Source of the DNA: Patagioenas fasciata
Lineage: Eukaryota > Chordata > Aves > Columbiformes > Columbidae
Length of the DNA stretch: 64,000 nucleotides
Reading direction: 5' to 3'
Assembly: GCF_037038585.1 (NCBI RefSeq)
Contig: NC_092525.1
Location: 20,046,867-20,110,866, forward strand
Shown: positions 5,541-64,000 of the stretch, piece by piece
How the letters are laid out: each line of letters opens with the position of its first letter
Position numbering within the stretch: position 1 is the first letter of the stretch
Notes under the pieces: model-generated
The model's database searches: none
What the model was told of the DNA's origin: nothing
Seen by the model: only the letters and a program-made list of their open reading frames with translations
Position numbers and translations under genes: made by a program

Positions 5541-5713
5541 GCTACCCAGGGAGGTTGTGGAGTCTCCTTCCCTGGAGACATTCAAAGCCCGCCTGGACAC
5601 ATTCCTGTGCGACCTCACCTAGGCGTTCCTGCTCCAGCAGGGGGATTGGACTAGATGATCTTTTGAGGTCCCTTCCAATCCCAAACATACTGTGATACTG
5701 TGATACTGTGATG
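5541..5713 (+). mobile_element. CR1 LINE 3' end, 5'-truncated
   Basis: The segment begins at a motif typical of the CR1 tail (gctacccagggaggttgtgg) and runs through the GATGATCTTTTGAGGTCCCTTCC-type 3' UTR common to avian CR1 elements. It ends in three 8-bp terminal units of the form tactgtga. Only about 170 bp remain, so the copy is severely 5'-truncated and carries no reverse-transcriptase coding. The 3' end lies at the right, so it is inserted in the same orientation as JUN. Confidence 0.9.
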
Positions 5714-15388: not shown

Positions 15389-16333
15389 ATGAGTGCAAAG
15401 ATGGAGCCTACTTTCTACGAGGATGCCTTGAACGCCAGCTTCGTGCCGCCGGAGAGCGGCGGGTATGGATATAATAACGCCAAAGTGCTGAAGCAGAACA
15501 TGACGCTGAACCTGTCTGACCCATCCAGCAACCTGAAGCCGCACCTAAGGAACAAGAACGCCGACATCCTCACGTCCCCCGACGTGGGACTCCTGAAACT
15601 GGCCTCGCCTGAACTGGAGCGGCTCATCATCCAGTCCAGCAACGGGTTAATCACCACCACGCCGACCCCGACGCAGTTCCTCTGCCCCAAAAATGTTACC
15701 GACGAGCAAGAGGGGTTCGCGGAAGGCTTTGTGAGAGCCCTGGCGGAACTGCACAACCAGAACACTATGCCCAGCGTCACCTCCGCTGCTCAACCTGTTA
15801 ACAGCGGCATGGCACCTGTGTCCTCTATGGCCGGCAACAGCAGCTTCAACACGAATTTGCACAGCGAGCCGCCAGTGTACGCCAATCTCAGCAACTTCAA
15901 CCCCAACGCACTCAACTCTGCACCTAACTACAACGCAAACAGCATGGGCTATGCACCTCAGCATCACATAAACCCCCAGATGCCGGTGCAGCATCCCAGG
16001 CTTCAGGCTTTAAAAGAAGAGCCTCAGACTGTACCTGAAATGCCAGGAGAAACTCCTCCCCTGTCCCCTATTGACATGGAGTCACAGGAGAGAATCAAAG
16101 CTGAGAGGAAACGCATGAGAAACAGAATTGCAGCATCCAAATGCCGGAAAAGGAAGTTGGAAAGGATTGCCAGGTTGGAAGAAAAAGTGAAAACTTTGAA
16201 AGCCCAGAACTCAGAGCTGGCATCCACTGCCAACATGCTCAGAGAACAGGTTGCACAGCTTAAGCAGAAGGTCATGAACCATGTCAACAGCGGGTGCCAG
16301 CTAATGCTAACACAACAGTTGCAAACATTTTGA
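15389..16333 (+). CDS. JUN: Transcription factor c-Jun (AP-1 subunit)
   Basis: This is an intact, intronless 314-codon gene. c-Jun is a nuclear bZIP factor that dimerises with FOS, ATF or JUN proteins and binds TRE/CRE sites. The JNK-docking delta region lies at about residues 30-57. JNK phosphosites are present at Ser63 (TSPD), Ser73 (ASPE), Thr91 and Thr93. A KEEP sumoylation motif and the GETPPLSP cluster (GSK3 and priming sites) precede the DNA-binding region, with [12 protein letters not shown] at its core and the redox cysteine in SKC. A leucine zipper and the end QLQTF follow. Length and sequence match avian c-Jun; a few residues differ from other birds (for example Asn37). The first ATG has a weak context (T at -3), while a second in-frame ATG at codon 5 (A at -3, G at +4) is stronger, as in mammals. 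No lesion is seen. Confidence 0.99.
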
Positions 16334-33690: not shown

Positions 33691-34540
33691 AAGCTGAAAT
33701 AAAACAGTGAGCAAACACTCCTATTACGGACACTTACGCAGCAGAGGCCAAATCAGAGACCTTTTCAGGCAATAGCATCACCTGCCCTTTCTAAGGTCTG
33801 CTGTAAACTCCATCATGTTGTTTTCAGCTGATACCTGTCCACAAAGTCAGTGCAAAGTATACACAGATCTGAATTAAAGTAATCTTACATATACACAGAC
33901 TTTTACTTTCGCATTTAACAATTATATTAGAGCTTAAGTGGTCTGTGTGAGGATTTCCAGTATTTCTATGTCACAACAATCTACTCCCTGCAGGGTTCTT
34001 GACAACACACTGAATTAAAATACAATCAGCACATTTACAGCACAAAGTTTCTCCGATGACACCATTGAAGCTGAATGAATCAGAATTTCTTACTAAGTTC
34101 TTACAGAGTAAAATGAAAAATTTCCTCAATGCATACAAGCTGATCTGCTATATATCCCTGCTATATATCTATACTGCTGAACACAAAATCCTTAAGTGCA
34201 ATCTGACAAAGAAGACAGAAGCAAACCCCATCATTTTATTTTCAAAATAATCTAGTAAGATCTAATAAGGAACAGTCCTTGGATACATGGAGCTAAAGAA
34301 GCCAGGAGAAATGAAAGTGGTCTGTGAGGTACTTACCAAAAAAAAAAAAAAAAAAAAAATCACCTTATGCCCCTCAAACAACAAATAAATGTAAAAGATA
34401 ACAAAGAAAGCCAAATATTTACCTTTTCCTCTGTCCAACTTATTTATTTTCTCAGATCTTTAGTAATATTAAATTCTGTCATTCTTATTTTTAATGAAGA
34501 GCTTCCTGGTGATCCCATGTGTTTGTGGTCTCATGCACTT

Positions 34541-34605
34541 CACAGTATCACAGTATCACAGTATCACAGTATGTTTGGGATTGGAAGTGACCTCAAAAGA
34601 TCATC
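34541..34605 (-). mobile_element. CR1 LINE terminal fragment
   Basis: Read on the minus strand, this is the CR1 3' end: a gatgatcttttgaggtcac-type block, then aatcccaaacatactgtga and further tactgtga terminal units. Only about 65 bp remain, so it is among the shortest 5'-truncated copies. It belongs to the same subfamily as the element at 5541-5713. Confidence 0.85.
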
Positions 34606-35419
34606 ATTCCTTAAAGAAGAGGTGTGAAACCATAATATTTGTCCATTCTCTAAAACATTTATATGTGAAATAGAGTTACTAATTTAAAAAGATATAGATA
34701 AAAAGCATGCTTCGAATAGCCAATTTTGAATCTCTTTTCTTCTCAACTATCTGGTTTTAATCTTTCTGTGAAGTCATTGTTGGAACAAAGGCTTAATTCT
34801 AAAAGTAGTTAAAATACTAATTAAAAAAAAATTGGCTTCTAAGACATAATTTCTAAAAATGAATCCATACAAGCTTCCAAAATTTGTGATTGTGAAATGT
34901 GATTCTTGTTTTAAGACAGAATTTCCTCGTAAGTCACATACTTATAATGAAGAACATTTTTTTGAATGCATAATTATATTTTGAAGGCTGTGATTTGCAT
35001 CTAGTAACAAGTAATTTGCTGCATATTATTTTCCCGAAATAAAGGCCCACCGTGTCTCTGAAAGAGATGCTGCCTGCATATATTGTTCAAATGTTCCTCC
35101 TCAAGGCCAGTTAGGAGTACTGCACCCTTTCATTTGTACTTGTAAAATTTGTGTATTCAGCACAGCAGGAAATTACTGCCATGGTAACAGACTCTTAAAG
35201 AATATAATAATTTCTGGTTTTAAATTTTTCAGGAGTTCCAAACATTCTTGTGCTGTCTATACTAACAATACTGCTCAGCACTCACGTGACATTTTGCATT
35301 GCGGGAACTCAAAACTCTCCTGTGAAGGTAATCAAGTTTTGCTATCTCTGTTTAACAGAGATTATTCACCAAACTATAATAATTCACCAAACTTTAAGAA
35401 AGGACTATTAATTTACTCA

Positions 35420-35545
35420 CGACACAGACAGATCTTCAGCACTTTATTAAGTTGAACCTGAAGACTAAATAATTTGCAGATCACAGACCAAGTCATTAGC
35501 AGATTTGGGAACACAATTCAGACCTCCTGACTCCCTACAGTAAGC
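35420..35545 (+). repeat. Possible MIR-like fragment
   Basis: The words 'ctaaataatttgcagatcaca' and 'gggaacacaattcagacctcctgactcc' resemble the 3' half of MIR-type SINEs. It is strongly diverged and low confidence. Confidence 0.3.
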
Positions 35546-36922
35546 CATAGTTTTTAATGTTGTGTGTTAACAATCATTAACTAAATGACAAAGGTTTTGC
35601 TATTCTTGGTGTAGTGCCCTTCTTTGCATTTCAGAGAAATTATTGGGCTCTCAAATTGGCTGTCAAATTTGCTGACTTGCTAATTGGCTGGCTTTCAAAA
35701 TATATATTAAAAGTCTTGCCTTTCCCGGCTATTTCTTCAATGAATCTTTTTCCTAATAGAAAAGCTTTGCAATCTTACTTATAAAACTAAAGTGAACAGA
35801 AAAAAAAAAAAATCTTATCAGTGACACTGTACATAGTATTAAAGAAAATACATACAAAGGCAGCAGGACCCAACAGAAAAGGCACTGAACTAAGAAACAG
35901 ACAGCAAAATTTCCCATTTGCTTAAATAAGGTCAAGCTTTTGGCTTTTTGGCTCATTTTACTTCTAGCTCTTACAGAACTCAGTAATCTCAATTTCAAAA
36001 TGTGTAGATTATTATTATTATTTTACTTCCTTCTCTCCATAAGGAATTTTAACACCAATAAGTTAAATTAATTACAGCTAGATTCAAAGGTCCTACACCC
36101 ATGTTGAAGACTATATGTATTCCCAGATTGGATGCTCTATTTAATGATACTTTAAATGTTGCATGCTGAATCACATGCCTTGATCCACCTCATGTAAAAG
36201 AATTAAGTTCCAGACAGACTCCAGGTTATAGCAGGAATGACAAGCTAAATAGCCTTTAAGTTAAATATACCTCATAGACTTAAGTTGTAGCTCATATTAG
36301 AAAGGCTGGTTCACTTTTTATAACTAGCTGCTTATACAGTTTATTTTTATCTACGTCTCTATGTTTTTATTTCATTACATTCTAGGGCTTTCACCTATGT
36401 AGCTGGCAATGTGTACTCTTTCATTTAAGATCACAGAAGGTATGTAATCATGGTAACAGTAACTATGCTGTGAATTTTCTTTTGTCATGTTTAATAGACT
36501 GGTTATTTAGGCACCCTCAAAAACAGCTTGGCCAGGGGAACAGGGGAACTCGATAAACAAGTATCTTCTCTTCAAGTATCAGATTCACAAAATAATTATT
36601 TTCTCTCTAATTATACACAAAAAATTTGGAAGAAGTCTTTCAAGTGGAATATCCTTACATATCACAGATTTTTGCTTTGTTACTAAACTTCACTTGTTGC
36701 TAAGGAAGAACAGAAAAGATCAAAGGACTTTTAACAGAAACAAAAAAAGGTGAGGGAGTTTTGATTTCTTTCTCATTCTTTGAAGATTTATCACTGGACT
36801 ACAACAGTTGCTGGTTCATAGGTCTATGAAAAGAATGTGTGAAATTATGTGAGCCTGCTTTGCTATTTCATATTTAACTGCAAACACCAAACGATAGCTC
36901 GATTCACTTTTTGATTATCAAC

Positions 36923-37117
36923 ATGATCATGCATTCAACTAGACTGTTTGCAAATCCATATGCAATTCAAGTCCTAAGAACTAAAAAAGAAGAGCTAGTA
37001 GAAGGCATAAATGACCCAGACTATCTTCTGAACTGGCTGACAGACAATGGTATTTTTACCCCAGAAAAAAAGATGGTCATTAGTTTCTACAGGACACGAA
37101 CAGAAAAGAACTCTTGA
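36923..37117 (+). CDS. CAIAP: CARD-encoding N-terminal frame of CAIAP, prematurely stopped
   Basis: From the ATG at 36923 (a second ATG follows at 36929) the frame reads through a helical segment containing LRTKKEELVEGI, then YLLNWLTDNGIF and ISFYRTRTEKNS, typical of the first helices of a CARD. It stops at TGA. The same frame continues after the stop with [17 protein letters not shown], clearly helices 4-6 of the CARD, and stays open to 37420. As read, the product would be a 64-residue half CARD without a foldable six-helix bundle. CARDs bind other CARDs, such as those of caspase-1-like proteases or ASC. Confidence 0.7.
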   Translation: MIMHSTRLFANPYAIQVLRTKKEELVEGINDPDYLLNWLTDNGIFTPEKKMVISFYRTRTEKNS

Positions 37118-37375
37118 GTTTTAGACATACTAATTTCTCAAGGTGAACGAGCCTGCAGGCTCTTTTTTTATCCATGTTTAAAGCAAGTGGAGCCACAACT
37201 TTATAGCAAGATGAGAAAATATGTCAGTGAAGTAAATGAAAGCATTAGAGATGCTAGAAGACAATTGGTAGGATATTTACTTGAAAAAGATAAGGTTTGG
37301 TCTGAAAACAGCAGTGAACAGCACCAGGGAAAAAAAGACAGTCCTAGAAGAAAAAAGCAAGAATGGACTATTAAG

Positions 37376-37388
37376 AAAAAAAAAAAAA
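37376..37388 (+). repeat. A13 homopolymer at the CAIAP frameshift
   Basis: Thirteen consecutive A residues separate the CARD-linker frame from the ankyrin frame. The offset equals one extra base (or two missing). The run is a natural hotspot for polymerase slippage in the genome, in transcription or in sequencing. Confidence 0.9.
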
Positions 37389-39191
37389 GAAACTCAACTT
37401 TCGAGAGCAGCAAAACCTAGAAAGGTTCATTCTGAGGTTGGCATCTTTGATGCAGTTGCTAAAGGGTATCTTTCTGAGTTGCAGAAAACACTGAAAGATA
37501 ATGATATTAATGTGCTAAACTCTTTGAGTGAAACACTTCTGCATGTTGCAGCCGCTAATGGCCATCTCAAGGTAATGCAATATTTGATCAGCAAAGGTGC
37601 AAAGACAGATGTAAAGGACAAGACAGGAAGAACAGCACTGCACAGGGCTGCGGAGAACAGCCACGGTGACGCAGTGAAAGCACTTCTCCAATGTGGTGCT
37701 TATATGTACAGTTTGGATAGGCAAGGCAAGACACCACTTCATTTGGCTGCACAGAATAACCACAGTCATGTGTTGAAGTTGATCCTGAAAGAAGAGGCAA
37801 GAAGTTACAGGAACCAGCACAACATTTTGCACATGTCAGCTCTTAAAGATGAGAGCAGTCTGGCAAAAATGCTTTTACAGGCTGGTGCCTGCACTGATGG
37901 AAAGGATGACAGAGGACAGACTGCTCTCAGTTATGCTGTTTCTCAGGGGTCTGAAAATACTGTGAAAGCGCTCCTAGAAGCTGGAGCTTGCGTTGATTCC
38001 AACATGACCGAAAGAGCCTTCAACAGCAGCCACCCATCCATCTTCAAAATACTACTAGAATATTCTAAAGGTCTGTCGTCTGACATGATGGAGTCAGCTC
38101 TTTTTAGAGCTGTACAGAAAAATCTGCATGGTATTGTAGCAGCTTTAATTGACAGAGGTACAGATATAAACCCCTACAATGAAATGCAGTACACTCCTTT
38201 ACTCCTGGCGTGTGAAACAGGCAAAGTTGAATCAGCAGAAGTTCTAATCAAAAAGGGAGCAGACTTCAAAATAAAGACTCCTGCTTCAGACACAGCTTTG
38301 CATTTGGCAGTTCAAGCTGGGGCGGCTTCCATCACAAATCTGCTTCTGCGCAAAGGGATGCAAGTTAACCTTAGGAACCAAGCCGATGAAACCCCTCTCC
38401 ATGTTGCTGCACTGCATAATAAAAGGGCATTAGTTGGCCTTTTACTTAATGCTGGGGCCAAAATTAATGCTGTCACTAAAGAGTTTGTTACTCCTCTGCA
38501 TATTGCAAGTCAAAGAGGTAACAGTGATGTTGCCCAAGAGCTGTTGCACCACAAAGCCAATGTTAATGTCAAGGATAGGCAGTCAAAATCGCCCTTACAT
38601 TTTGCTGCTGAAAGGGGAGACAAAACAATGGTAGAGATGCTTCTGAATGCTAATGCTGACCCCAATGCAGAAGACAGGGAGAAAAAGACTCCCCTGCACA
38701 TGGCAGCTGTGAGAGGACATCTCAGCATCGTGGAAGTTCTGTTAGCTAAAAAAGCAAGATTTGGAGTTAAGGACATGGATGGATGTACTCCGATGCACTA
38801 TGCAGCTATCAAAGGAAACACAGAGATCGTAAAAATTCTTCTGACATCAGGGACAAATAAAAATATTGAGGATAGAAACATCTGGAGAAAGACCACCCTG
38901 CATATTGCAGCAGAATATGGACACAGCAACCTGATAAATCTACTACTGAGCCACGGGGCAGCCATTAATGCCTTAGACAACACCAAGGATACCCCACTGC
39001 ATTGTGCGTGCAAGGCTGGTCATTTTAATGCTGTGAAATCCCTTGTAAACTGGTCACAAGGAGAAAAAGCAAATTTATTAGCTGCTAACAGTCTCAAAAA
39101 GACCCCATTGCAAGTGGTAGAATTAAATAAGATGGAAAATCAGGCTCAAATTGTAACACTTTTGAAAAAGAAAATGTTAATAACAAAATGA
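37389..39191 (+). CDS. CAIAP: Ankyrin-repeat array of CAIAP (open frame)
   Basis: Downstream of the A13 run a frame of about 600 codons is uninterrupted. It contains repeated T-P/A-L-H-x-A-A signatures about every 33 residues ([99 protein letters not shown] and others), giving 16-18 repeats, with a degenerate one after ERAFNSSHP. Ankyrin arrays bind proteins; in CAIAP this part is reported to associate with the caspase catalytic domain (from memory). The first in-frame ATG is within the second repeat (near 37576). Whether an ankyrin-only protein is made is unknown. Confidence 0.7.
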
Positions 39192-41240
39192 AGATGTAAA
39201 GTAAAAACTTCAAAATTTAAATGCAGAATTCTCTTCTAATGTAATCTGGATAGTGTTTTTGCCCAATATGATTGAGAATTATGTTAAGGTAGTTAGCATA
39301 ACTTATGCTAAGAACTAAGTTAGCAATCAAAGGTGGCCATGGCAAAAAGGATCTTAAAGACACTGTTAAACTTGCAAGTACTGATTAGTTTGCTTCCATA
39401 ATGAATCTCATACCTATTTCAAAAGCCTCAGTCTTAAACACATTAAGCCTCAGTCTTAAACTCTAGTATAAATCAAATTTTTTTAAAAGAAAGGATTGAA
39501 AATAACTTTTCATGTGTCTGTGATTATCAGCCTGTACGGATAGCTCAGTTAAGCATTGTTTGGTAAAATCACATTTTTAAAAAGCCATCTATTATGAGTA
39601 AGGAGACATCTGTATCCCCAGGGATATAGAACATAGAGATGCTAGAGTAGATAACACTAGTTTTGTTTAGCTTAGGCAGACTTAAGCGCAGAGTGCTGCC
39701 AAAATAATCTGCTCTCCCTGTCAGTCCAGTCATGCATGTCTGCTCCAGGTTGCATGTGTGTGCTGATTCAACCTACTCCACAGCTATAACTGAACATGGG
39801 GAAAAAGAGGGTAGCAAACAGCTGAACAGCACCAGCTCTCCTGAGGCTAATGTAACATTAGCTTGCTTTATGCTGATCACAATATTGCTCTCTGAGCTAA
39901 CCAGAGATCAGAAGGCATCTCCCTGCAAATGTACTAGTGTGGGGTTTGCTCTACTCTAGATTTACTAGACCCACTCCCCATGCTAATAAATCTTATCAGG
40001 AGGCTCAGTATAAACCAACTAGAGGAGGAGTGTGTGCCCAAAACTTTGCTAACACAATGTTGTTTTCAGGCCACTATTATGTGCTATATTGACATTCAAT
40101 ATCTGGCTAGACCCTCTTTAGACATTTATATATTATACCCTCTGACATGGCATTGACAGATCCCAAGACTAAATGGATCGTTTTTCTTCCTATCCTTCAT
40201 TACACTATTTCTCCAGATTTTGCATTTTTAAGTAGAGGTAACAAAGCCAATCATATTTGCTGTTTGTTAATTTCACTTTCAAATCAGTTCCAGCACAAAG
40301 ATGAAATGTTCAGATTAAAAAGGTTGTAATGAGTTTATTGGTTCAAAATATGCATTATTTTAATATCTTAAAAGAGAAACTCTTTCTCAAGTCAACAGGA
40401 GGATCTCTGTGGTCATTTTCTGTATGATGATAATCAACCCCTATGGTTCTTCGCATTTTCATTCACTATATGATTAGAAGCTCAATTACCATGAAAAGAC
40501 AAATGCATTTTGCAAAATGAAACAACAGATTTAAGAATGTTTGGAAAAAAACCGTGACTTTTATGGGTGTGTTACAATGTGCACAACACCCTGCTGCTGT
40601 CATCTTCTTGATGCACAGCAAGACACGATGGTGAGCTCAGCAGCGCAGAGGCTGGCAGACCAGAAATCTGCAGCACGATGCACCAAAAGCATCCCCTCTT
40701 GAGTCAGCTTGATACCGTAAAATCGGCAAATTAATGAACGCTTAAAAACATGTTTTTGGGTTTTAAAAGGAGCATTTCTTTATTCGGTACTGGGGACGGA
40801 CTGGAGGTGTCCCTCCATAGATCAGCCGCTGACCTATACATGGCTTATATTGACAGAAACACTACAGTTGACGGAAAACTGACAAAAACATTACAATTCT
40901 TGACAACCATTAAGATATTCCATGCCTATTCTAACACAAGCTATCTTTTAAGCAATGCTAAGCAACATTTGCCTGTTTCTCAGTTACCATTCACGTTTCT
41001 CAGTTACTTCTCAATTATCTATTTTAAAATAATGTCATAAATCTATATCAGTTTCAAGAATAAGGTAGCACTACAAAGTACAAAGATTCTAGGGCTACAA
41101 GGTTTGCTTATACAAAGATTCTATGGTTACAAGGTTAGTTGATCTTTAAAGGTTGCTACCTTAATATTCTCCTAAACTGTGAGTCCTATAATTCCTTCAA
41201 ATACAGTCCAATAGTTAGAAATACAGGTATCAAGTCTACT
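39192..41240. other. Intergenic DNA between CAIAP and MYSM1
   Basis: About 2 kb of AT-rich DNA. A possible poly(A) signal for CAIAP, AATAAA, lies at 39985-39990, about 800 bases after the ankyrin stop, and is only a candidate. Near-perfect short duplications occur at 39424-39462 (agcctcagtcttaaac twice) and 41079-41139 (a 'tacaaagattct...acaaggtt' unit twice). No exon was recognised. Confidence 0.6.
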
Positions 41241-41360
41241 GTAACGCAAGGGGCCGGGTGCGCCCCGGGCAGTTCGCAAACCGCCGCTGCCCCAGCGCGC
41301 TCCAGCAGCAGCAAGCGAGGAGAAGCGGATCTCCCAGCAGGTTTCTCGCCGCCCTGAGGC

Positions 41361-41397
41361 ACGACACGACACGAGACGACACGAGACGACACGGCCC
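41361..41397 (+). repeat. 10-bp minisatellite in CpG island
   Basis: About three copies of an acgacacgag-type unit in tandem, preceded by a shorter cgaca repeat, immediately upstream of the MYSM1 promoter. Copy number may vary between individuals. Confidence 0.75.
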
Positions 41398-41713
41398 GGC
41401 CTCCCATTCCAACCGCCCCCGCCGCAGAGCGAGCGGCGCACCCGGAGGAGCAGCCGGCACGGGGCGCGCGGCCTGGGCGGGCTCGGGCCTCCCTCAGCCG
41501 CAGGTCGCTCTGCCCCGTCACGCCGGCGCTTTCCCCGCAGCTCCCGCGCTCTCCCGTCCCCGCCTGACACTCGCCCCTTTCCGTTCCCCTCCCACTCCTG
41601 CCCCTCGGCGCCCGGCTCGCCCTCAGCCGCCCCCTGAGCGCCCCGCCTACCCCGGCGCCATCTCTCCGCCTCCGTCCCGGCTTCTCCTCAGGGCGCAGCT
41701 TCGCTGAGGGGAT

Positions 41714-41725
41714 TGCGCACGCGCG
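41714..41725 (+). promoter_or_regulatory. MYSM1: NRF1 motif
   Basis: TGCGCACGCGCG fits the YGCGCAYGCGCR consensus of nuclear respiratory factor 1 at every position. It lies 73 bp before the MYSM1 ATG. Confidence 0.65.
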
Positions 41726-41770
41726 GCGTCCCGCGCACGCCCCGGTCACCCGCGCGGCGCTGCCGCCTGT

Positions 41771-41780
41771 TCTCGCGAGG
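41771..41780 (+). promoter_or_regulatory. MYSM1: TCTCGCGAGA-type (BANP) box
   Basis: tctcgcgagg differs by one base from the palindrome TCTCGCGAGA, the CGCG element bound by BANP in unmethylated housekeeping promoters. It ends 17 bp before the start codon, so transcription may begin close to it. Confidence 0.6.
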
Positions 41781-41797
41781 GTGGTGGGGCCGGTGTC

Positions 41798-57096
<15,299 letters not shown>

Positions 57097-63227: not shown

Positions 63228-64000
63228 ATGGAGCTGCTGCTGGGGGTTTTGCTGGGTCTGATACTGGCGGCAGCTTCGTCAGCACAGAACAACTGCACCT
63301 ACGCGACCAAGTGGATGGTGTGTGCCCAGACCTGAGAACTGCACCTGCACGCTGGGGGGTTCCAATCACAAGGTAGAATGTTCAATGTTGACGCCAAAAT
63401 GCTTGCTGATGAAGGCAGAAATGATGCTCCTGAAGGAGAAATGCTTCCAGGGCCATCCCCATGGGCTGCTAGACGTCAATGGCATTTACAGTCCAGACTG
63501 CGAGGATAGTGGCATCTTCAAAGCCAGGCAGTGCAATCAAGCTGATGCTTGCTGGTGTGTGAACACTCCTGGCATAAGAATCACCGAAAAGGTTGACAAA
63601 AGCCTGAGGTGCGATGCACTGGTTAGAACAAGCAGGATCTACATTCAGCTGAAGCACAAAAAATTCTGGGGCCTGGGATGCTGCCCATGTAGCAAACACT
63701 CTGAAACAGCTGTTTGAGAGTCGATACAAAGTACATTGCAGCCATTAAGTATAATTCTCCACTTACCCAAATCGACCTGAAGCAGCATGACTCTGGGAAA
63801 TTTAAGTGTGATGTAGATATAGCAAATGTAGCCTGTTACTTTGAGAAAGATAGAAAAGATGACTCCACATTTCATTCTAACAGTACATTAACTGTCTCTG
63901 TCAATGGAAATGCTCTGGATATTGAAAGGATTTACTACATGGATGAAAAGCCATCACTGTTTTCCATGAATCAACAGGCTGGTGAAGTTATTGCTGTGGT
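63228..64000 (+). pseudogene. TACSTD2: TACSTD2 (TROP2) homologue, frameshifted, cut by window end
   Basis: TACSTD2 is an intronless relative of EPCAM, an epithelial surface glycoprotein. Here the ATG at 63228 starts a plausible signal peptide (MELLLGVLLGLILAAASSAQ) and cysteine-rich region, but that frame ends at TGA 63333-63335. Homology continues in the next frame (PENCTCTLGG, then a thyroglobulin type-1 domain with KARQCNQADACWCVN) to TGA 63715. It then moves to a third frame (LKQLFESRYKVH, from the A-run at 63658-63663) and back to the first from 63738 (AAIKYNSP, DIERIYYMDEK), where about 11 bases appear to be missing. A Cys of the first domain is Tyr (CTY instead of CTC). Position downstream of MYSM1 on the same strand fits the ancestral TACSTD2 locus. 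The membrane and cytoplasmic parts lie beyond the window. Confidence 0.82.

Follow-up and report, generated by a model that had tools for sequence, protein, structure and literature searches.

A CARD-ankyrin gene, likely CAIAP, is interrupted by a premature stop and a frame change in the genome assembly of Patagioenas fasciata

We analyzed a 64,000-nucleotide stretch of the Patagioenas fasciata genome (hereafter, the window). One locus on its plus strand (36923-39191) starts with a CARD, continues with a linker rich in lysine and ends in an ankyrin array, in which we count about 17-18 repeats by eye (Table 1). An earlier note, made from the sequence, had described a CARD followed by 16-18 ankyrin repeats, and Pfam matches to CARD and ankyrin families bear this out. 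The CARD and the ankyrin array do not share a single open reading frame, owing to a TGA at 37115-37117 and a change of frame within 37272-37420.

Table 1. Layout of the CARD-ankyrin locus, in window coordinates.
Feature	Position	Strand	Evidence
Open frame at the 5' end, 64 codons closed by the TGA; holds the CARD's first half	36923..37117	+	frame reading and Pfam
CARD domain (PF00619 positions 2-83) with in-frame stop	36968..37216	+	Pfam with X at the stop; genome scan
Premature TGA stop, codon 65	37115..37117	+	sequence
Second half of CARD and lysine-rich linker, in the frame of the first half; closed at 37418-37420	37118..37420	+	frames and Pfam
Interval bounding the frame change, two frames open	37272..37420	+	frame reading
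A13 run, presumably the likeliest site of the frame change	37376..37388	+	sequence
Ankyrin array of about 17-18 repeats (by eye) with its stop, in the other frame	37440..39191	+	frames, Pfam, structure model
Longest ATG-initiated ankyrin-only frame, 538 codons	37575..39191	+	frame reading

The stop at 37115 is where the earlier note had placed it: 64 sense codons run from the ATG at 36923, and the TGA that ends them lies inside the CARD. When the stop was represented as X, the domain matched PF00619 with 48.6 bits (E = 8.6e-13). Its two halves alone scored 21.1 and 18.5 bits, each under the curated cut-off in Pfam, with the residues before the TGA matching profile positions 2-49 (E = 3.3e-4) and those after it positions 53-83 (E = 2.1e-3). 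Because both sides join as one CARD match, the stop breaks a once-continuous domain rather than marking the edge of an exon. A genome-wide CARD scan, which gave 27 matches among 29 candidates scored, ranked the locus eighth, above the cut-off (45.2 bits) and with 1 TGA inside. Among 177,635 distinct sequences of solved structures, 13 matched the CARD at E up to 1; the nearest were NOD1 CARDs (E about 1e-5 to 3e-5), followed by CARD8 (0.0019), and the weakest was a designed cage. A structure model of the CARD with W in place of the stop was too poor for use (mean pLDDT 57.5).

The 600 residues after the A-run match ankyrin families (Ank_2, E = 7.8e-110), and five Pfam ankyrin families each match 9-13 stretches of this part. 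In a single-sequence structure model of 37446-39188 (mean pLDDT 77.7, pTM 0.64, 36 of 581 residues under 50), the predicted fold looks by eye like the run of helix pairs seen in ankyrin solenoids. One repeat, at about 38001-38090, is short by eye and has no TPLH motif, which may be ancestral or may reflect a small in-frame loss. Eleven NCBIfam families, mostly of bacterial ankyrin proteins, also match the array, all far below their cut-offs, and we attribute these matches to generic repeat likeness. Prokaryote relatives, considered as possible host contamination, were rejected too: none of the 12 pattern-matching stretches in prokaryote genome contigs encodes a relative (tblastn).

The CARD is read in frame 2 and the ankyrin part in frame 0 (mod 3), a one-base offset. 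The ankyrin frame is open over 639 codons (37272-39191); 300 mononucleotide shuffles of this interval gave no open frame longer than 176 codons. In the ankyrin part, GC content at codon positions one to three is 0.53, 0.37 and 0.39; that of the 1-kb flanks is 0.33 and 0.38. Read from its first ATG (37575), the ankyrin frame gives 538 codons, fewer than the about 600 of the earlier note. Since the CARD and ankyrin frames are both open in 37272-37420, the change of frame can be placed anywhere in that interval, which contains A5, A7, A6 and A13 runs. Long homopolymer runs slip most, so we favor the A13 run (37376-37388) as the likely place. The earlier note had put the shift at this run; the run and the one-base offset are both present, but the site is bounded only to the interval.

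The architecture is that published for CAIAP, a CARD with about 16 ankyrin repeats (PMC5662874). In the zebrafish protein the CARD is N-terminal and the array C-terminal, and its length (744 aa; PMC5662874) compares with about 755 codons here once the one-base offset is set aside. The locus, which we liken to zebrafish CAIAP by architecture only, differs from it in the stop at codon 65 and in the frame change between CARD and ankyrin repeats. In the genome (1.45 Gb, 359 contigs), window positions 37500-39100 have one DNA match. A protein search in which 73 of 247 candidates were scored returned at least 64 matches, and the best non-self match among those listed reached 34% identity and 153 bits, compared with 1306.5 bits for the locus. 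Given its architecture and the one copy found, the locus is likely the CAIAP gene, as the earlier note had proposed. With its stop and frame change, we file it as a broken copy (pseudogene) rather than a working member.

The locus lies between JUN and exons like those of MYSM1, the neighbors named in the earlier note. JUN occupies 15395-16333, carries Jun and bZIP domains and is open over the whole Pfam profile; downstream of the locus, exons at 46503 and 47188 encode Myb and SWIRM domains, and we take them to be MYSM1. Beyond these lies an exon (63262-63714) with EpCAM N-terminal and thyroglobulin type-1 domains, which is presumably TACSTD2/EPCAM-like. Two CR1-like repeat ends (5654-5680 and 34579-34605) differ by 1 and 2 mismatches from what we take to be the CR1 repeat-end motif, with 0 expected by chance, and accord with an avian genome.

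Could a full-length protein still be made? Zebrafish caiap has two exons (PMC5662874), and splicing might bypass the two lesions together, or a short linker intron might account for the frame change; we regard either as very improbable. Scored with approximate tables, frame-joining linker introns exist on paper with a best summed score of 12.0, but so high a score was also reached at 34% of 400 non-coding positions drawn at random from the window, and such an intron would leave the TGA in place. The earlier note had named a spliced bypass of the TGA and the A13 run. In-frame joins of this kind can indeed be drawn (best sum 10.1, a value without a random control), but no donor upstream of the stop scores above 3.4 (top 14.6% of GT sites), a weak value next to the 8.8 of the presumed MYSM1 donor. 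Moreover, excising the stop would cut the CARD, because the domain aligns continuously across the TGA. The description of the locus as intronless applies to the stretch from CARD to ankyrin repeats only. Full-length protein by readthrough of the TGA together with polymerase or ribosome slippage on the A-run is more improbable still. Long A-runs are known slippery sites, but two rare events would have to coincide on one message, and the TGA is followed by GTT, not by CTA, the context of high readthrough. Selenocysteine at the TGA was rejected, as no SECIS element was matched in Rfam within 34000-43000 up to E 5; the two matches returned, SNORA51 and CLRN1-AS1, were both far under the gathering score.

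A weightier alternative, although we still think it unlikely, is that the gene is not a fixed pseudogene: the A-run change would stem from misassembly or be polymorphic in length, and the stop would be a segregating allele or another error. The frame change falls in the stretch that holds the A13 run, where indels are typical, whether as sequencing errors or as polymorphisms; this counts against a pseudogene. The sample is one individual's assembly, with one copy and one haplotype seen, and the rest of the frame is intact. However, the stop codon lies outside any homopolymer, and this assembly has two separate lesions in one gene, whereas its neighbor JUN is open over the whole Pfam profile.

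The reading that we prefer, with a probability of roughly 0.6, is that the locus is this bird's single CAIAP gene turned young pseudogene. CAIAP was probably lost recently in this bird, since its apparent only copy has both an early stop and a reading-frame change; we infer here that the gene is orthologous to CAIAP and that the lesions are real and fixed. Translation from 36923 would stop at codon 65 within the CARD, and even if the stop were passed, the change of frame in the linker would part the CARD from the ankyrin repeats. No protein with both parts would be expected, so that the CARD-driven self-oligomerization needed by zebrafish Caiap would be gone. The earlier claim that the CARD-to-ankyrin link has been lost is in this sense upheld, for one assembly, by the TGA and the frame change.

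The age of the event was estimated with a neutral mutation model run on the real codons under four parameter sets, in which the A-run received no hot-spot weight. Two lesions were expected at 0.006-0.012 substitutions per site; the chance of a lesion-free ankyrin part fell to 5% at 0.011-0.025 substitutions per site, and that of at most two lesions in the whole gene to 5% at 0.018-0.039. At a rate of ~2e-9 substitutions per site per year, the two-lesion divergence corresponds roughly to 3-6 million years and the limit for a lesion-free ankyrin part roughly to 6-13 million years. Because the neutral model accommodates the open ankyrin frame, selection is not required to explain it; nevertheless, 600 lesion-free ankyrin codons also fit continuing constraint, which counts against the pseudogene. 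The crowding of both lesions into the gene's first 20.5%, with a post hoc chance of 0.042 under random placement, likewise counts against it.

The same gene went long ago from another vertebrate lineage. Homology and synteny searches found no copy of CAIAP in placental mammals (PMC5662874), in keeping with the earlier note, which gave humans no obvious counterpart. In contrast, the gene body in this bird is still nearly whole, and the event therefore looks recent. That a single lineage loses an innate immune gene is ordinary; the literature searched, in the portions accessible to us, does not describe a pseudogenized avian CAIAP.

We also considered whether the ankyrin part has been kept as a stand-alone protein, begun at a downstream start or in a separate 5' exon, that binds active caspase-1 without oligomerizing it. 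The long open ankyrin frame agrees with this, as does the position of both lesions in the gene's first fifth, and zebrafish Caiap stripped of its CARD keeps its binding to active Caspa, with which it forms specks (PMC5662874). Two acceptor-like sites, at 37484 (top 4.5% of AG sites on the plus strand of the window) and at 37551 (top 5.4%), leave room for a further 5' exon. But the first ATG of the ankyrin frame (37575) appears by eye to sit within the first complete repeat and is preceded by 17 other ATGs, counted from 36923 inclusive, a layout under which this message could not yield ankyrin-only protein efficiently. The open frame, in turn, is explicable by neutral decay. We thus consider a retained ankyrin protein improbable, and the long open frame neither bears out nor contradicts retention for another use, one of the two alternatives in the earlier note: neutral decay fits, and neither starts nor splice-like sites offer an easy ankyrin-only product. 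A little less probable again is an uncoupled adaptor, in which the CARD-less ankyrin half persists, still grips active caspase-1 and so curbs or shortens its action, in a bird for which no PYCARD was found either. AATAAA signals are not above chance in L021 (4 found vs. 4.62 expected), and the nearest on the plus strand past the stop is at 39985.

In zebrafish, the ankyrin repeats of Caiap bind active Caspa and the CARD self-oligomerizes; knock-down of caiap reduces both the activity of caspase-1 and Salmonella resistance, and Caiap without its CARD gives no rescue (PMC5662874). Zebrafish Caiap acts with, and depends on, Asc (PMC5662874). By analogy, a bird without the CARD-ankyrin link should lack the self-oligomerization step, and birds may not have Asc. 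What is known of the function comes from zebrafish and its Asc-linked Caiap, so that the effect of the loss in a bird is a guess.

The genome contains a gene on contig C23 (2706363-2708888) with a full CARD in one exon (64 bits) and QACRG and SHG motifs. We take it to be caspase-1-like. One TGA lies inside one of its caspase-domain matches and may belong to an intron. At C10:40571202-40610980, four caspase-domain matches exceed the cut-off, three of them with a QACQG motif, and we take the cluster to resemble that of caspase-8/10/CFLAR. A caspase exon scores identically (43.3 bits each) at C47:358652 and C48:85515798, possibly in a shared Z/W region.

No PYCARD was found among the Pyrin- and CARD-domain matches of the genome, of which the best candidates were scored. 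The Pyrin scan gave three matches among the best candidates: one at C5:1344074, where the next long frame is NLR-like by eye, one at C35:6085703, where the protein also has a death domain, and one on C13 below the cut-off. None of the 27 CARD matches lies on C5 or C35, and ~316 kb separate the C13 match from the closest CARD match, hence no candidate PYCARD; as only the best candidates were scored, this is weak negative evidence. PYCARD/ASC was not found in chicken, turkey or zebra finch (PMC13076529), and it is likewise an inflammasome adaptor missing from birds. PYCARD was found in none of those three species, whereas CAIAP is listed as present in six birds: turkey, chicken (XP_004936902), budgerigar, golden eagle, barn owl and white-throated sparrow (PMC5662874 Table 1). 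Chicken caspase-1 cleaves chicken gasdermin A (PMC10948149). Loss of CAIAP may have been tolerated if bird inflammasomes already run on a changed adaptor set.

If the lesions are fixed, CAIAP would have been lost once more, and recently, this time in a bird whose copy is still legible. Other gene models of CAIAP in birds may hide lesions that automatic annotation passed over. If published results carry over, Patagioenas fasciata would have caspase-1 with neither adaptor; together with the apparent lack of PYCARD, the loss of CAIAP would then amount to a natural experiment on whether either adaptor is required by caspase-1 in birds.
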